From assembly GCA_028683435.1 (NCBI GenBank), contig JAQUIG010000001.1, forward strand, positions 196,393 to 260,392: a stretch of 64,000 nt of DNA, written 5' to 3'. The stretch comes from Desulfuromonadaceae bacterium. GTDB lineage: Bacteria > Desulfobacterota > Desulfuromonadia > Geobacterales > Pseudopelobacteraceae. The notes beneath the pieces are model-generated. The model ran no database searches, was not told the origin of the DNA, and saw only the letters and a list, made by a program, of their open reading frames with translations. Both the position numbers and the translations under genes were made by a program. Shown one piece after another: positions 38,364 through 56,794 of this stretch (positions within the stretch are counted from its first letter, which is position 1; each line of letters opens with the position of its first letter).

Positions 38364-40640
38364 ATGACAACAGACAAAACTCTCTCTCGAAAGCAACGAA
38401 GGGGAGCAGAGACGATAGCAAAGCGCTCCGCCGGTAAGCCGGGACAATCCCCCAACGTATTTGATGGAATCAATTTTTTGGTGACGTTGTTCAATCAGGG
38501 GTGCTACGCGGAAGGTGAAGCGTTTGCACGGCAACAGATAAAGCGATTCCCGCACCATGGCTTTTTCTGGAAAGCCCTGGGATTGATGATCAGATCTCAG
38601 GGACGCGATTTGGAATCGGTGGAGCCGATGCAGAAAGCGGCACTATTGTTGCCTAAGGACGCCGAGACGCATTTCAATCTGGGCAGCACTCTCAATGATC
38701 TGGGGCGCCTGAATGAGGCTGAGGCCAGTTTCCGCCGCGCGCTGGAGCTCAAACCGGATTACGTTGAGGCTCATAGCAATCTCGGTAACACGTTCAAGAT
38801 TCTTGGCCGCCTGAATGAGGCAGAAGCGTGCTTCCGCCGCGCACTGGAGATCAAGCCCGATTACGCCTTGTCACATAGTAATCTCGGTGTCACCCTAAGG
38901 GATCTGGGTCGCCTGGATGAGGCAGAAACCAGCTTTCGCCGCACACTGGAGCTCAAGCCGGATTACGCCGATGCTCATTACAATCTCGGCAACACTCTCA
39001 TGGACCTTGGGCGCCTGAATGAGGCAGAAGTCTGCTTCCGCCTCGCGTTGGAGATCAAACCGGATTACGAAAAGGTATATTGCAATCTTGGCAACACGCT
39101 CAATGCTCTGGGTCGTCTGCATGAGGCCGAGGCCAGCCACCGCCGCGCGCTGGAGATCAAGCCGGATTATGCTGAGGCGCATAACAATCTGGGCATCACT
39201 CTCAAGGAGCTGAATCAGCTGAGTGAAGCTGAAGCCTGCTACCACCGCGCACTGGAGTTAAATCCTGATTACGTTGAGGCGTATAGCAACCTGGGCATGG
39301 CTCTCAAGGATCTGGGGCGCCAGAATGAGGCTGAAGCCAGCTACCGTCGCGCACTGGCGATCAAGCCGGATTCCGCAATATCGCACAGCAATCTGCTCTT
39401 CACCCTCAACTACGCAGCCAGTCACCCTCCTTCGTATCTCCTTGAAGAGGCCCGTGCCTGGGAGACCGGCTGCATCTCTGAAACAGACAGGCGTGTCGCG
39501 CATGCAAGGGGATTCAGCCGCCCAACTCTCACCGGCCGCCGATTGCGTGTCGGGTATGTATCGGCTGATTTCAGACAACACGCAGTAAGCTACTTTGTGG
39601 AGCAAGTTTTTGCTCATCACGATGCTGCCCGCCTGGAGGTTTTTGCCTACAGTGCCAGTGCAACGCGTGATGCCGTCACCGAGCGGATCGAGGCCCTGGT
39701 CGAGCATTGGGTTCCGGTGATCGGGCTTTCAGATCAGAAACTGCGTGATCGCATAGAAGCTGACGAGATTGATGTGCTGATTGACCTTTCCGGGCATACG
39801 GCGCAGAACCGTTTGGGGGTGTTCGCACTGCGCGCCGCACCGGTGCAGGCTCATTGGCTCGGGTACTTCGCCAGCACGGGGCTCACGGAGATGGATTACT
39901 GGATTGGTGACCCGATCCTCACCCCGCCTGAGACGGATAATCATTTCAGTGAGACGGTGTGGCGTCTGCCACGAACCTGGGTCTGCTATGAGGGCAAGGT
40001 AGAAGCACCCGAAAGTTGCTGGCAACCGACAGCGGACGGCACGCTGTGGCTGGGAAGTTTTAACAATCTGCCCAAGCTCACTCCTGCCACCTTTGCCCTC
40101 TGGGCACAGGTGCTCCATAAGCTCCCGGAAGCAAAACTGCTCCTTAAGACCAAGGGACTGACGGAAGAACGGAACCGCCAGCGCATCATGGATACCATGG
40201 CCAGCTACGGCATCGGAAATGAGCGCATCGAACTGCAGGACAGCCGCATCACGGTAGACTGGGCAAGCCATATGGCATACTATGACCGCCTGGACATTGC
40301 GCTGGACCCGGTTGGCGGAGTCGGCGGCGGCACCACTACTTGCGATGCCCTCTGGATGGGGGTGCCGGTAGTAAGCCTGGCCGGCGATCGCATGGCATCG
40401 CGTATGACCGCCTCAATGCTGGATGCAATAGGGCGTCCTGAATGGCTGGCAGGATCTGAAGAAGAATACGTGGCGAAAGTGACTGAGCTAGCCCATGATG
40501 TGGCGGGGCGTGAAGTCATGAGGACAAGCCAGCGGGAGCGCATGGCCTCCAGTCCACTATGCGATGCAAAGGGGCTTGCCGGGAAGCTGGAAGATGCCTA
40601 TGGGGCAATGTTTGAACAGTTGGCGGAAATAGTGGGTTGA
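38364..40640 (+). CDS. TPR-containing O-GlcNAc-transferase-like (SPINDLY/GT41) glycosyltransferase, copy 1
   Basis: Seven consecutive 34-aa TPRs; catalytic region GRRLRVGYVSADFRQHAVSYFVEQVF...DVLIDLSGHTAQNRLGVFALRAAPVQAHWLGYFASTG. Confidence 0.92.
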   Translation: MTTDKTLSRKQRRGAETIAKRSAGKPGQSPNVFDGINFLVTLFNQGCYAEGEAFARQQIKRFPHHGFFWKALGLMIRSQGRDLESVEPMQKAALLLPKDAETHFNLGSTLNDLGRLNEAEASFRRALELKPDYVEAHSNLGNTFKILGRLNEAEACFRRALEIKPDYALSHSNLGVTLRDLGRLDEAETSFRRTLELKPDYADAHYNLGNTLMDLGRLNEAEVCFRLALEIKPDYEKVYCNLGNTLNALGRLHEAEASHRRALEIKPDYAEAHNNLGITLKELNQLSEAEACYHRALELNPDYVEAYSNLGMALKDLGRQNEAEASYRRALAIKPDSAISHSNLLFTLNYAASHPPSYLLEEARAWETGCISETDRRVAHARGFSRPTLTGRRLRVGYVSADFRQHAVSYFVEQVFAHHDAARLEVFAYSASATRDAVTERIEALVEHWVPVIGLSDQKLRDRIEADEIDVLIDLSGHTAQNRLGVFALRAAPVQAHWLGYFASTGLTEMDYWIGDPILTPPETDNHFSETVWRLPRTWVCYEGKVEAPESCWQPTADGTLWLGSFNNLPKLTPATFALWAQVLHKLPEAKLLLKTKGLTEERNRQRIMDTMASYGIGNERIELQDSRITVDWASHMAYYDRLDIALDPVGGVGGGTTTCDALWMGVPVVSLAGDRMASRMTASMLDAIGRPEWLAGSEEEYVAKVTELAHDVAGREVMRTSQRERMASSPLCDAKGLAGKLEDAYGAMFEQLAEIVG
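38658..39371 (+). repeat. Seven tandem 102-bp TPR-encoding units
   Basis: Repeated NLGxTLxDLGRLNEAEAxFRRALEIKPDY at 34-aa spacing. Confidence 0.9.
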
Positions 40641-40697
40641 TTCCGCAGATAATCAAAACGAAAAATGTTGAAAACATGCAATAGCAGAGGATCGGGC

Positions 40698-43109
40698 ATG
40701 ACCAACCGAAAACAAAGACGGGCTACCGAAACGAGAGCAAAAAGTGGTCATAACAAGACCGGGCAGACGCATCAAACACCAGGAGCGGGTGCTTCACCAC
40801 CGGTCGAAAATCCTACTTCGGAAGAAATAGGACTTTTAGTGACTCTGTTTAACCAGGGTCGCTACATAGAAGGAGAAGCCATTGCCCGGCAACAAATAAA
40901 GCGTTTTCCACAACATGGTTTTTTCTGGAAGGTCTTGGGACTGATGATCAAATCTCAGGGTCGTATCATGGAATCGCTGGAGGCAATGCAGAAAGCGGCA
41001 ACATTGTTGCCGATGGACGCAGAAGCGCATTTCAATCTTGGCATCACTCTCAATGATCTGGGGCGCCTGAATGAAGCAGAACTCTCCTACCGCAGGGCTC
41101 TGGAGATCAAGCCGGATTACGTTGAGGCACAGAGCAATCTCGGTAACATATTCAAGACTCTTGGCCGTCTGAACGAGGCAGAAGCCTGTTATCGCCGTGC
41201 GCTGGAGCTTAAGCCGGATTGCGCCCTTCCACATAGCAACCTTGGCGTCATTTTACGAGATCTCGGTCGCCTGAATGAGGCTGAATCCTCTTTCCGTCGT
41301 GCTCTGGAAATCAATCCGGATTACGCTGAAGCACATTACAATCTTGGCAACACTCTCATGGATCTTGACCGCATGAATGAGGCCGAAGCCTGCTTTCGCC
41401 GCGCAGTGGAGATCAAGCCGGATTACGCTGAGGCACATTATAATCTTGGCAAAGCATTCAATGCCCTGGGCCACCAGAATGAGGCCGAAGCCAGTTATCT
41501 CCGCGCGTTGGAGATCAAGCCAGGTTACGTTGAGGCACATTACAATCTTGGCATAACCCTTATGGACCTGGGTCGCCAGCGTGAGGCCGAAGCCTGCTAT
41601 CTCCGCGCGCTGGAGATCAAGCCGGATTACGTTGAGGCACATACCAATCTTGGTATTACCTTAATGGGTCTGGGTCGTATGAGAGAGGCCGAAGCCTGCT
41701 ACCGTCGCGCTGTGGAGATAAATCCTGATTACGTTGAGGCATATACCAACCTTGGCAATACCCTCAAGGATCTGGGGCGCCAGCATGAGGCCGAAGCCTG
41801 TTACCGCCGGGCACTGGAGATCAAGCCGGATTACGCAATGGCGCACAGCAATCTGCTCTTCACCCTCAACTACGCAGCCAGTCACCCTCCTTCGTATCTC
41901 CTTGAAGAGGCCCGTGCCTGGGAGACCGGCTGCATCTCTGAAACAGACAGGCGTGTCGCGCATGCAAGGGGATTCAGCCGCCCAACTCTCACCGGCCGCC
42001 GATTGCGTGTCGGGTATGTATCGGCTGATTTCAGACAACACGCAGTAAGCTACTTTGTGGAGCAAGTTTTTGCTCATCACGATGCTGCCCGCCTGGAGGT
42101 TTTTGCCTACAGTGCCAGTGCAACGCGTGATGCCGTCACCGAGCGGATCGAGGCCCTGGTCGAGCATTGGGTTCCGGTGATCGGGCTTTCAGATCAGAAA
42201 CTGCGTGATCGCATAGAAGCTGACGAGATTGATGTGCTGATTGACCTTTCCGGGCATACGGCGCAGAACCGTTTGGGGGTGTTCGCACTGCGCGCCGCAC
42301 CGGTGCAGGCTCATTGGCTCGGGTACTTCGCCAGCACGGGGCTCACGGAGATGGATTACTGGATTGGTGACCCGATCCTCACCCCGCCTGAGACGGATAA
42401 TCATTTCAGTGAGACGGTGTGGCGTCTGCCACGAACCTGGGTCTGCTATGAGGGCAAGGTAGAAGCACCCGAAAGTTGCTGGCAACCGACAGCGGACGGC
42501 ACGCTGTGGCTGGGAAGTTTTAACAATCTGCCCAAGCTCACTCCTGCCACCTTTGCCCTCTGGGCACAGGTGCTCCATAAGCTCCCGGAAGCAAAACTGC
42601 TCCTTAAGACCAAGGGACTGACGGAAGAACGGAACCGCCAGCGCATCATGGATACCATGGCCAACCACGGCATCGGGAATGAGCGCATCGAACTGCAGGA
42701 CAGCCGCATCACGGTGGACTGGGCCAGCCATATGGCATACTATGACCGCCTGGATATTGCGCTGGACCCGGTAGGCGGCCTTGCTGGTGGCACAACCACT
42801 TGCGACGCGCTCTGGATGGGAGTGCCGGTAGTAAGCATGGCCGGTGATCGCATGGCATCGCGTATGACCGCCTCAATGCTGGATGCAATAGGGCGACCTG
42901 AATGGCTGGCAGAATCTGAAGAAGAATATGTGGCGAAAGTGACTGAGCTGGCCCATGATGTGGCGGGGCGTGAAGTCATGAGGGTAAGCCAGCGGGAGCG
43001 CATGGCCTCCAGTCCACTATGCGATGCAAAGAGGCTTGCCGGGAAGCTGGAAGATGCCTATGGAGGGATGTTTGAACGGTGGCGAACAAACATGCAAAAA
43101 ACAGTTTGA
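40698..43109 (+). CDS. TPR-containing O-GlcNAc-transferase-like (SPINDLY/GT41) glycosyltransferase, copy 2
   Basis: Eight consecutive TPRs and a catalytic region almost identical to copy 1. Confidence 0.92.
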   Translation: MTNRKQRRATETRAKSGHNKTGQTHQTPGAGASPPVENPTSEEIGLLVTLFNQGRYIEGEAIARQQIKRFPQHGFFWKVLGLMIKSQGRIMESLEAMQKAATLLPMDAEAHFNLGITLNDLGRLNEAELSYRRALEIKPDYVEAQSNLGNIFKTLGRLNEAEACYRRALELKPDCALPHSNLGVILRDLGRLNEAESSFRRALEINPDYAEAHYNLGNTLMDLDRMNEAEACFRRAVEIKPDYAEAHYNLGKAFNALGHQNEAEASYLRALEIKPGYVEAHYNLGITLMDLGRQREAEACYLRALEIKPDYVEAHTNLGITLMGLGRMREAEACYRRAVEINPDYVEAYTNLGNTLKDLGRQHEAEACYRRALEIKPDYAMAHSNLLFTLNYAASHPPSYLLEEARAWETGCISETDRRVAHARGFSRPTLTGRRLRVGYVSADFRQHAVSYFVEQVFAHHDAARLEVFAYSASATRDAVTERIEALVEHWVPVIGLSDQKLRDRIEADEIDVLIDLSGHTAQNRLGVFALRAAPVQAHWLGYFASTGLTEMDYWIGDPILTPPETDNHFSETVWRLPRTWVCYEGKVEAPESCWQPTADGTLWLGSFNNLPKLTPATFALWAQVLHKLPEAKLLLKTKGLTEERNRQRIMDTMANHGIGNERIELQDSRITVDWASHMAYYDRLDIALDPVGGLAGGTTTCDALWMGVPVVSMAGDRMASRMTASMLDAIGRPEWLAESEEEYVAKVTELAHDVAGREVMRVSQRERMASSPLCDAKRLAGKLEDAYGGMFERWRTNMQKTV
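41016..41831 (+). repeat. Eight tandem 102-bp TPR-encoding units
   Basis: 34-aa periodicity, one unit more than copy 1. Confidence 0.9.
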
Positions 43110-53059: not shown

Positions 53060-53605
53060 ATGCCGGATCTCTTGACTAAAAAAGAACGTAAGGAACTGCT
53101 GAAGATCGCCCGGGAAACGGTTGTTGACTATGTCACAAACCGGAAAGTTCCCGCCGTCACATCAACATCACCGGGGTTGAACCTTCACTCCGGCTGCTTT
53201 GTCACGATTAAAGAGAAGGGGGAGCTGCGTGGGTGCATCGGCAATTTTGTCTCCGACCAGCCGCTTTATCTGCTGGTGCAGGAGATGGCGGTCTCGGCGG
53301 CAACCAGCGATCCCCGTTTTTATCCGATGAAACCAGAGGATCTGGCCGATTTTTCGCTTGATATCTCGGTGCTTTCACCACTGAAAAAGGCCGACTCGGT
53401 CGAGGAGATCAAGGTCGGAATCCACGGCATCTTCATCGTCAAAGGGAGTTATCGCGGCGTGCTGCTGCCTCAGGTGGCCACCGAATACGGCTGGAACCGT
53501 GACCAGTTCCTGCAGCATACCTGCATAAAAGCCGGTCTGCCAAAGGACGCCTGGCAGGGAGAATGTGACATTTATATCTTCAGTGCCCAGGTCTTTGGGG
53601 AGTAA
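53060..53605 (+). CDS. AMMECR1-domain protein
   Basis: GCFVTIKEKGELRGCIGNFVSDQPLYLLVQEMAVSAATSDPRFYPM. Confidence 0.92.
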   Translation: MPDLLTKKERKELLKIARETVVDYVTNRKVPAVTSTSPGLNLHSGCFVTIKEKGELRGCIGNFVSDQPLYLLVQEMAVSAATSDPRFYPMKPEDLADFSLDISVLSPLKKADSVEEIKVGIHGIFIVKGSYRGVLLPQVATEYGWNRDQFLQHTCIKAGLPKDAWQGECDIYIFSAQVFGE

Positions 53606-53630
53606 GCAGAGACCGCAAGAATAAGTCCCC

Positions 53631-53706
53631 CATCAGGCAATTGCCCCAATAATTGACCTCAGGCAATTACCGAGGCAATTATCTCATAATTGACCAACAA
53701 TTGACC
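53631..53706. repeat. Degenerate short repeats (GGTCAATT/GGCAATT)
   Basis: Repeated aggcaatt, aattgacc units between AMMECR1 and the AlbA_2 gene 3' end. Confidence 0.65.
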
Positions 53707-53718
53707 AATAGTGTCAAT

Positions 53719-55425
53719 TCAGGGTCGATCCTTAGTTTGCAAATACCAGAAAGCCCCAGCACCATGGCCGGATGAGAAAATCTGGCCATCTGCCTCAAGC
53801 TCCTTAAGCACCCCAGTCACTTGCTTTCGGCCAAGATCAGAAAAGTTCCGTATATCCTTGTTACTGAGCGGGCGCTCCTTAACAAGCGAGAGAATGCGAA
53901 CCTTGATGGCCTCTCTGTCCAACCTTCTGGTCATGTCATAGGTTGCGCCATCACTCAGAATCGCTGCAGAACGACGGGACAGTCGATAGACAGTGCCACG
54001 CCCTGTGCCGCTATGTTCCAGCATGAGCAGATTGGTTTCAAGTGAAGCAAGCTTTTCTTTCAGACGACGGTCATCATAGGGGTAAGCTTCGCGTACTTCA
54101 TTCCATTGTGCTTCATGCCGTCGGCGGAAAAAGTGTAAGAGCAGAAGGTCATCCACATCCAGATAAGCTCCGTTAACGTCGACCAGAAGATCCAGTAATG
54201 CCTTGAATGCAGTATCAACCTTCTGTCCAGGGAACGTCACCCTGACCGTTTGGCCAATCTCGTCAAAGCTCGGAGGTTCCTTGCCTTCTTCCAACAGGGC
54301 TCTAAAGATTCTTGGGACACCAAGATTCTGACGGTTCGCCAGCCGAGTCGCAAGCAGAACCGTCTCAACCAGATACCGGTTTCTTGTGACTGGTGGGTGG
54401 TGGAGGATGTTTGCAGGGGTCACACCGCCTGAAAATCCACCTGGGCTGTTTATCTCAAACCGGTCGCGGTAATGGCGGATAAAAACCATCCCCGGAATAG
54501 AATAGTCTCGATGGGCAAAGGCATTCAACAACGCTTCACGCAGGGCGATGGTCGGATATTGTGGAAATTCCGGGTGAAAAAGTCCGGATTGAACAATTGT
54601 GACAGGATTGTTCTGTCCCAAAAGCAGCATGATCTTGTCCAGCGCCACCAAGATACAGTCACGACCACCGAATGGCTGGGTCTCGTAATCGGTGTCGGTA
54701 CGCATGCGACTGTATTTCCACTCATGATTTGGCGCATGGATGGCAAGCACATCATCCCTTCCAGCAACCAAAAGACCGGCCAGGGTCAAACGTCCATCCT
54801 TGAAAAACCCGAGTTTGCTGCATAAATCATAGTCATCACAGGCCAAGAGGTCGCTGGGGGCTCTCATGCTCTTCATCTCTCGTCTCAAAATCTCAAGCGC
54901 TGCGAGTGATATGGCTTTGAAGGGCTCTTCAATTGGCAAAACGGATGACGTCTGATCACTGAGGCCTGCTCTTTCGCGTAATTGCCGCAGCAGAGAGCCG
55001 GTCAGCGGTTTACAGTCCTTACCTATCCGCATCCATCCCTTGCCTGATGTCGTGGTATATGGAGGCATGGACGGATAGACGTGCATCAACAGAAGGCGAC
55101 GTGGGCCATACACCAACCATTCGAACTGAACCGGCAACTTAGGGTCGATACAATCGTACAAAGTGGCTTTCAACGCTTCCAAATCAGGGGCAAAGTCGAT
55201 TCCGATAATTGCTTTATCACAGCCGGTTACTCGCTCCCTCACACCAAAGACCACCGTACCACCTGAAGCATTACCAAAGCATATCGCCATTTCCTTGGCA
55301 AGCTCGCGCAACTTAGCCTCAGTGGGGCACTCCTTGAAGTCAAGGGTTTCGGATTCAAGTTCATCGGCAATCTGCTCCTCAAGCAGCGGGAGCAGGGACA
55401 GGACTTTTTCGGGTGAATGGGCCAC
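53719..55425 (-). CDS. AlbA_2-domain ATP-binding protein (Schlafen-AlbA/HATPase_c_4 type) with winged-helix C-terminus
   Basis: ESETLDFKECPTEAKLRELAKEMAICFGNASGGTVVFGVRE; REALLNAFAHRDYSIPG...RFEINSPGGFSGGVTP. Confidence 0.88.
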   Translation of the reverse strand: MAHSPEKVLSLLPLLEEQIADELESETLDFKECPTEAKLRELAKEMAICFGNASGGTVVFGVRERVTGCDKAIIGIDFAPDLEALKATLYDCIDPKLPVQFEWLVYGPRRLLLMHVYPSMPPYTTTSGKGWMRIGKDCKPLTGSLLRQLRERAGLSDQTSSVLPIEEPFKAISLAALEILRREMKSMRAPSDLLACDDYDLCSKLGFFKDGRLTLAGLLVAGRDDVLAIHAPNHEWKYSRMRTDTDYETQPFGGRDCILVALDKIMLLLGQNNPVTIVQSGLFHPEFPQYPTIALREALLNAFAHRDYSIPGMVFIRHYRDRFEINSPGGFSGGVTPANILHHPPVTRNRYLVETVLLATRLANRQNLGVPRIFRALLEEGKEPPSFDEIGQTVRVTFPGQKVDTAFKALLDLLVDVNGAYLDVDDLLLLHFFRRRHEAQWNEVREAYPYDDRRLKEKLASLETNLLMLEHSGTGRGTVYRLSRRSAAILSDGATYDMTRRLDREAIKVRILSLVKERPLSNKDIRNFSDLGRKQVTGVLKELEADGQIFSSGHGAGAFWYLQTKDRP

Positions 55426-55634
55426 AATATATTACCGCCTTTAGTCAATGTGTAGACGCGACACTTACGTTGCTTCCTTAGCCGCTGATTCCCAACTTAT
55501 TTTGTATGTGGTTGAGACAGTCCTCGTCGGTGACCGAGGTTTAGAACAGGTTTATCTGGTCTTCTGCAAATTTCTTACGAGCAAGATGCCGTTTGCCTTG
55601 AATCGTCTCAAAGCTCACAAAAAACTAAAAAACT

Positions 55635-55768
55635 GGGACAGATCAATTTGATTCTAATGATCATCTTTTGTAGACCTACCTAATCCCGCTGCATCAACTG
55701 TTCATTAGTTATAAATAGATCTGTCCCGCATTTATACCGATAAATAGATCTGTCCCGCATTTATACCG
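55635..55768. repeat. Inverted/tandem repeat around gggacagatc / gatctgtccc
   Basis: gggacagatcaattt at 55635 and two exact tandem 29-bp copies of ataaatagatctgtcccgcatttataccg at 55711-55768. Confidence 0.8.
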
Positions 55769-55777
55769 CATTTATAC

Positions 55778-55919
55778 GCTGCCGCAGGTGGCGACTGAAT
55801 ACGGCTGGAACCGTGACCAGTTCCTGCAGCATACCTGCGTAAAAGCCGGTCTGACAAAGGACGCCTGGCAGGGGGAGTGTGATATTTATATCTTCAGCGC
55901 CCAGGTCTTTGGGGAGTAA
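55778..55919 (+). pseudogene. Displaced 3' end of the AMMECR1 gene
   Basis: 142 bp with 133/142 identity to 53464-53605, same stop codon; no 5' portion. Confidence 0.92.
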
Positions 55920-55921
55920 AT

Positions 55922-56794
55922 CTACAGCAACCCGCGCACAATCTCTTCGAACTCGCCGGCAAGCGGCGCCTTTACACTTATTTCCATCTTCTTTGTATTC
56001 TGAAACTTCATAACCGAACAATGCAGCATCATCCGCCTCGCCGCGCCGCCGTCGTAAGTAGCATCGCCTAAAATCGGCAGGCCGACCGAGGCAAGATGCA
56101 CCCTGATCTGGTGGGTGCGGCCGGTCAGCGGCCTCGCTTCCACCAATGAGATATCACCTGATGTCGCCACCGTCCGAAATTCGGTGACAGCCGCTTTGCC
56201 GCCTTCAACGATCCCGTAACGTGCCGAGGCGACCTTGCCGATCGGCGCGTCCACCGTCCACCGCTCCTGATCGGGGCGTCCGGAAACCAGCGCCAGATAG
56301 AGTTTGTCAACCAGGCCATCCTGAAACAGCTTGGAGAGTCGAGCGGCACTCTGCCGGTTTTTCGGGAAGAGCATCGCTCCCGACGTGCCGCGATCGAGGC
56401 GGTGGACAACCCGGGCCGGTTCACTGCTCCCGGCCGCCTTGAAATATTCGGTCACCCAGTATTCGAGCGTCCCTTTCAGCTGATACGGGGTGCGCTGGCT
56501 GTTGATCCCGGCCGGCTTGTTGACGGCGATCAGCTCCTCATCCTCATACAGCAGCGCCTCGGGGGGCAGCTGCAGTTCCTTAAAGCGCCCCGTTTCCATG
56601 ACGCCGATCTCGATGACGTCACCCGCCTTGACACTCCTCGATGCCACCCGCACCAGCGCAACGTTGATCGTACAGCCGCCACGGTCGATGATACGGCGCG
56701 CCTCTGATTTGCTGACCCCCGGACAGAGGGTACTGATCGCATCATCGAGCCGGCTGCCGTTCTGCTCTTTTCCTACATTTTTTCGTAGTATCAT
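55922..56794 (-). CDS. RluA-family pseudouridine synthase
   Basis: VVHRLDRGTSGAMLFPKNRQSAARLSKLFQDGLVDKLYLALVSG; ARPLTGRTHQIRVHLASVGLPILGD; start at MILRKNVG. Confidence 0.92.
   Translation of the reverse strand: MILRKNVGKEQNGSRLDDAISTLCPGVSKSEARRIIDRGGCTINVALVRVASRSVKAGDVIEIGVMETGRFKELQLPPEALLYEDEELIAVNKPAGINSQRTPYQLKGTLEYWVTEYFKAAGSSEPARVVHRLDRGTSGAMLFPKNRQSAARLSKLFQDGLVDKLYLALVSGRPDQERWTVDAPIGKVASARYGIVEGGKAAVTEFRTVATSGDISLVEARPLTGRTHQIRVHLASVGLPILGDATYDGGAARRMMLHCSVMKFQNTKKMEISVKAPLAGEFEEIVRGLL

Follow-up and report, generated by a model that had tools for sequence, protein, structure and literature searches.

An AlbA_2 ATPase gene inserted behind AMMECR1, with a displaced AMMECR1 end beside the gene's former neighbour

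In the window (the whole 64,000-nucleotide stretch of DNA analysed here), AMMECR1 and an rluA-like gene are separated by an insert, and the final part of AMMECR1 is found on both sides of it. The features of the locus are, in order:

53060..53605, plus strand: AMMECR1 (AmmeMemoSam_A-type), intact, 181 aa (Pfam PF01871, 1.8e-56; NCBIfam TIGR04335, 190 bits, cut-off 99).
53464..53605, plus strand: copy A, the 142-bp end of the intact AMMECR1, matching copy B at 133/142 positions.
53606..53718: left flank on the 3' side of the AlbA_2 gene, AT-richer, with AATTG repeats.
53719..55425, minus strand: gene for a 568-aa SLFN_AlbA_2 and HATPase_c_4 protein (Pfam), rare and horizontally scattered.
55628..55777, no strand assigned: REP-like terminal repeat element, with related copies on another contig (C23).
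55778..55919, plus strand: copy B, a displaced and 5'-truncated AMMECR1 3' end that keeps its stop codon and the native spacing to rluA.
55922..56794, minus strand: rluA-like pseudouridine synthase (Pfam PF00849, 6.9e-32), the original convergent neighbour of AMMECR1.

Copies A and B form an ungapped direct repeat of 142 bp (93.7% identity), far beyond chance expectation (E 7.8e-55 when the 276-kb contig, C56, is compared with itself), and the repeat takes in the final 46 codons of AMMECR1 together with its stop codon. Directly behind the TAA stop codon the homology ends, copy A running on into GCAGAGACC and copy B into ATCTACAGC; 2 bp separate the end of copy B from the rluA stop. The repeat includes a perfectly identical run of 42 bp, with homology extending on both sides of it. 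The nine differences are made up of seven synonymous changes, one I to V and one P to T replacement. At both amino-acid changes the minority residue is in copy B (the base of the I codon is present in 23/29 relatives and that of the P codon in 27/29), and both appear to be derived in that copy. A first-pass annotation had pointed to this repeat, to the position of its second copy directly before the rluA-like gene and to the seven silent changes among nine, and all three observations are borne out.

The self-comparison of the contig revealed no other gene-end duplications besides tandem-repeat genes and one weak 138-bp pair. This pair, a direct repeat of 77% identity outside the window (L109:12384-13843, C56:272384-273843), lies upstream of two different genes and appears to be an upstream or regulatory region that both have in common. 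Within the window, positions 38675-43084 hold two stretches of 102-bp-unit tandem repeats, 1.95 kb each, 90% identical to one another and 0.5 kb apart.

The DNA between copies A and B is 2,172 bp long and holds a single 568-aa open reading frame plus repeats; the ORF, its Pfam domains and the tandem repeat agree with the earlier description of about 2.2 kb with one AlbA_2 gene and repeats. The predicted protein carries an SLFN_AlbA_2 domain (PF04326, 5.4e-13, 49.9 bits against a gathering cut-off of 25.3) and a HATPase_c_4 domain (PF13749, 2e-15, above the gathering score). The gene has a GC3 of 0.54, against 0.65-0.72 in the neighbouring genes, and is rare in the class, being found in 3/277 genomes at E<=1e-100. 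Its nearest relatives (81-86% amino-acid identity in the best segment) reside on three MAG contigs, in unrelated contexts without AMMECR1. The three aligned homologues have in common only the gene and up to about 80 bp downstream, and share no element ends; homology to one of them, on L056, spans 53639-55441, covering the gene plus some 80 bp downstream and nothing beyond, so that 53639-53718 also lies downstream of the homologue there. An AlbA_2 gene beside AMMECR1 was found nowhere else, whether in the genus (39 congeneric genomes), in GTDB genome contigs or in the class (277 genomes), and the search for the same arrangement at other AMMECR1 loci, proposed in the first-pass annotation, was therefore negative. 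We found no match of the protein in viral contigs and no known RNA in the insert.

A defence assignment of the AlbA_2 protein was considered and rejected, the PADLOC matches being confined to about 50 residues of Argonaute-associated models. In a Geobacteraceae MAG (L056:66-6654) the AlbA_2 homologue adjoins a protein of 1623 aa that weakly matches TrwB/HerA-like ATPases, and this neighbourhood may be of a defence type. A second AlbA_2 gene (80% amino-acid identity, one internal TAA) survives as a C-terminal remnant 150 kb away, outside the window (L085:7727-8128, C56:97727-98128), between a PIN-domain gene and purA, the latter named from its sequence.

Relatives show the site without the insert. 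In 19 congeners AMMECR1 and rluA are uninterrupted convergent genes at a stop-to-stop distance of -4 to 45 bp, the adjacency that had been suggested as a check, and the duplicated arrangement is accordingly not ancestral. Since the 2 bp between copy B and the rluA stop match the native spacing of these empty-site congeners, copy B occupies the original position of the gene end, and the arrangement with the insert is the derived one. The empty site in relatives, together with a gene that is missing from near relatives and scattered among distant ones, supports the reading of the AlbA_2 gene as a horizontally acquired insertion. Every congener with a match has one orthologous AMMECR1, and we found no second gene or gene end in any of them.

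Two congeners, G006 and G016, carry a different insert of 2.9 kb with two paralogous genes at the same site, which indicates that the site has taken up DNA more than once. These inserts come with no second copy of the AMMECR1 end. The paralogues (L068:804-3739 in G016 and L080:417-3293 in G006) are about 386 and 389 aa long with signal-peptide-like N-termini, and the G016 pair has no Pfam match.

The right end of the insert is formed by the REP-like element. Positions 55628-55733 have two further copies on contig C23, at 94% and 81% identity, and the 94% copy (C23:60167-60271) overlaps the 3' end of a Y1_Tnp gene (C23:60247-60933; 6.6e-17) for an IS200-like (RAYT-type) transposase. With the same repeat at the end of a transposase gene, the repeat in the insert qualifies as a REP element of an IS200-like transposase. 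The locus on C23 (L086:3380-4934), where REP-like hairpin repeats lie at the 3' end of the RAYT-type transposase gene, is likely to represent the source family of the insert's repeat. The tail of the element consists of an exact 29-bp unit present twice, followed by a partial unit, and directly abuts copy B. Because one of the two C23 copies has a similar iterated tail, the tail probably belongs to the element itself and is not a junction scar; the idea that the 29-bp tandem is a repair scar was dropped for this reason.

We examined how copies A and B are related in a tree of AMMECR1 from at most 30 congeneric sequences and the window. The two copies cluster together with support of 94/88 (31 species). 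They differ at 9/142 positions (6%), and the nearest other species shows at least 15 differences (10% or more) over the same segment. The first-pass annotation had proposed to test copy A for a closest match outside the species; among the 31 species copy A is nearest to copy B. Being mutually nearest, the two copies either had a donor from a near-sister lineage or are in-genome duplicates. The 5' part of AMMECR1 could be assigned to neither copy (held-together AU p 0.34 and 0.39).

The excess of synonymous changes bears on the same question. In simulations in which both copies are of equal age, A is constrained, B is unconstrained since its birth and nine differences accumulate in total, two or fewer non-synonymous changes arose in only 0.6-1.5% of neutral-relic runs (P 0.006-0.015); with B constrained, the observed excess was ordinary. 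Since neutral relics so rarely give this outcome, most of the divergence between A and B probably dates from a time when selection acted on both, with only nine changes to judge from. The first-pass annotation was thus right that a neutral local duplication would not be expected to give such a pattern, a relic neutral from birth fitting poorly (P about 0.01). Its further suggestion, that the copies probably diverged under selection in separate lineages, is plausible and not forced, as the same synonymous excess would be expected of a full-length in-genome duplicate whose truncation came later.

We propose, with about even confidence, that the insert came in with DNA of a near-sister lineage: recombination within AMMECR1 would have secured one side, and the REP end would have joined illegitimately on the other. 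Three elements of this account are inferred, namely the donor, the route and the identity of the resident copy. A segment of a closely related lineage's DNA, in which an AMMECR1 end preceded the AlbA_2 gene and a REP-type repeat, would have entered the cell. Its AMMECR1 end would have recombined with the resident AMMECR1 along their common sequence, and its far end would have joined the resident gene illegitimately at the edge of the REP element, by homology-facilitated illegitimate recombination or an equivalent single-crossover insertion-duplication. AMMECR1 would thereby have remained whole, completed by one version of its 3' end (copy A), and the other version (copy B) would have been pushed 2.2 kb downstream, beside its former neighbour rluA. 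With AMMECR1 homology on one side and a non-homologous junction at 55777/55778 on the other, the locus offers a candidate crossover. AMMECR1 followed by AlbA_2 in the donor-type order occurs in none of the 39 congeneric genomes (one genome per species) or the three MAG loci. In favour of this route we count the empty site in 19 congeners, the scattered occurrence and lower GC3 of the AlbA_2 gene, the mainly silent differences between A and B, the closeness of the two copies, the REP element that ends at copy B and the lack of an integrase on the contig. The genome has ComEC- and DprA-family genes, which are compatible with DNA uptake and are no proof of competence, both families also occurring in non-competent bacteria. 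Against this route stand the small number of substitutions, nine, behind the selection argument, the 5' part of AMMECR1 that fits neither copy better, the donor-type order that was found in no genome, and a homology that ends at the stop codon, for which the donor's insert would have to begin exactly there.

The main rival, next after recombination with sister-lineage DNA and less probable, is a duplication within the genome. AMMECR1, whole or only its 3' end, would have been copied locally, the AlbA_2 gene would have arrived between the copies, and the second copy would have been truncated later, perhaps through loss of DNA at the REP element. The REP element at the truncation point agrees with this, as do the pairing of A and B among the 31 species and the synonymous excess, which a full-length duplicate under selection would explain. 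However, a second orthologous AMMECR1 is absent from every congener with a match, a neutral duplicate of the 3' end only fits poorly on the simulations above, and the duplication would need to stop exactly at the stop codon.

It is unlikely that the insert is a decayed site-specific integrative element with the AMMECR1 3' end as its attachment site and a replacement end of its own. The geometry is that of such an element, with copy A restoring the gene, copy B beside the old neighbour and homology ending at the stop codon, and the 42-bp identical run could be the core. Yet homology runs on at both sides of that run, no Phage_integrase gene is present in the insert or elsewhere on its contig, common element ends are missing from the AlbA_2 homologues elsewhere, and the 39 congeneric genomes hold no second occurrence at AMMECR1. 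The first-pass view of a cassette with its own gene end thus stands as to the derived insertion of a rare gene; a mobile unit is not established, as there is neither an integrase on the contig nor a second occurrence in the 39 congeneric genomes. An assembly chimera of two co-existing strains, conceivable in a draft genome of 97 contigs with A and B at roughly a strain- to sister-species distance, is very improbable given a contamination of 0.76%, the lack of a shared word at 55777/55778 long enough for a mis-join, and a 276-kb contig that is contiguous on either side. Most speculatively, and least probably of all, the AMMECR1 3' end might be the attachment site of a small integrase-less mobile unit (the AlbA_2 gene and its REP end) that restores its target gene with its own version of the end, an IS200-like transposase perhaps moving it in trans.

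The insert has left a clear footprint, that of ordinary gene acquisition rather than a new kind of mobile element. With its empty-site relatives and its displaced gene end, it is a clean footprint of the gain of a single gene beside a conserved one, an event type in which a gene can be gained without harm to its neighbour. By itself it leaves the knowledge of gene transfer in general unchanged.

Compared with known SLFN_AlbA_2 / HATPase_c_4 proteins, the encoded protein has both domains above the gathering score and nothing unusual; what differs is the site. The repeat resembles the REP elements of REP-associated tyrosine (IS200-like) transposases in its hairpin arms GGGACAGATC...GATCTGTCCC and in having copies at the transposase's own locus, whereas the element in the insert stands alone and bears a 29-bp tandem tail. 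Prophages 21 and e14 in icd are integrative elements that replace the 3' end of a gene. As there, the copy on the side of the element completes the gene and the displaced copy lies at the far end, with few and mostly silent differences between them; unlike those prophages, the AMMECR1 insert has no integrase, no defined element ends and no recurrence in relatives, where each congener with a match has one AMMECR1 end. Displaced 3' gene ends in T6SS loci of V. cholerae have been ascribed to the kind of recombination that we favour, homology-facilitated illegitimate recombination having been proposed for the T6SS effector/immunity arrays (PMC5361080) and for Rhs loci. In those loci, as would be the case here, a conserved gene part acts as the anchor, a downstream gene is gained and the old 3' end is left downstream as a remnant. 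Unlike in the T6SS and Rhs cases, the displaced end at AMMECR1 belongs to a conserved housekeeping-type gene whose C-terminus is unchanged, and the mechanism is read from sequence alone; the cargo is a single AlbA_2 ATPase gene in place of the toxin/immunity pair of the T6SS arrays.
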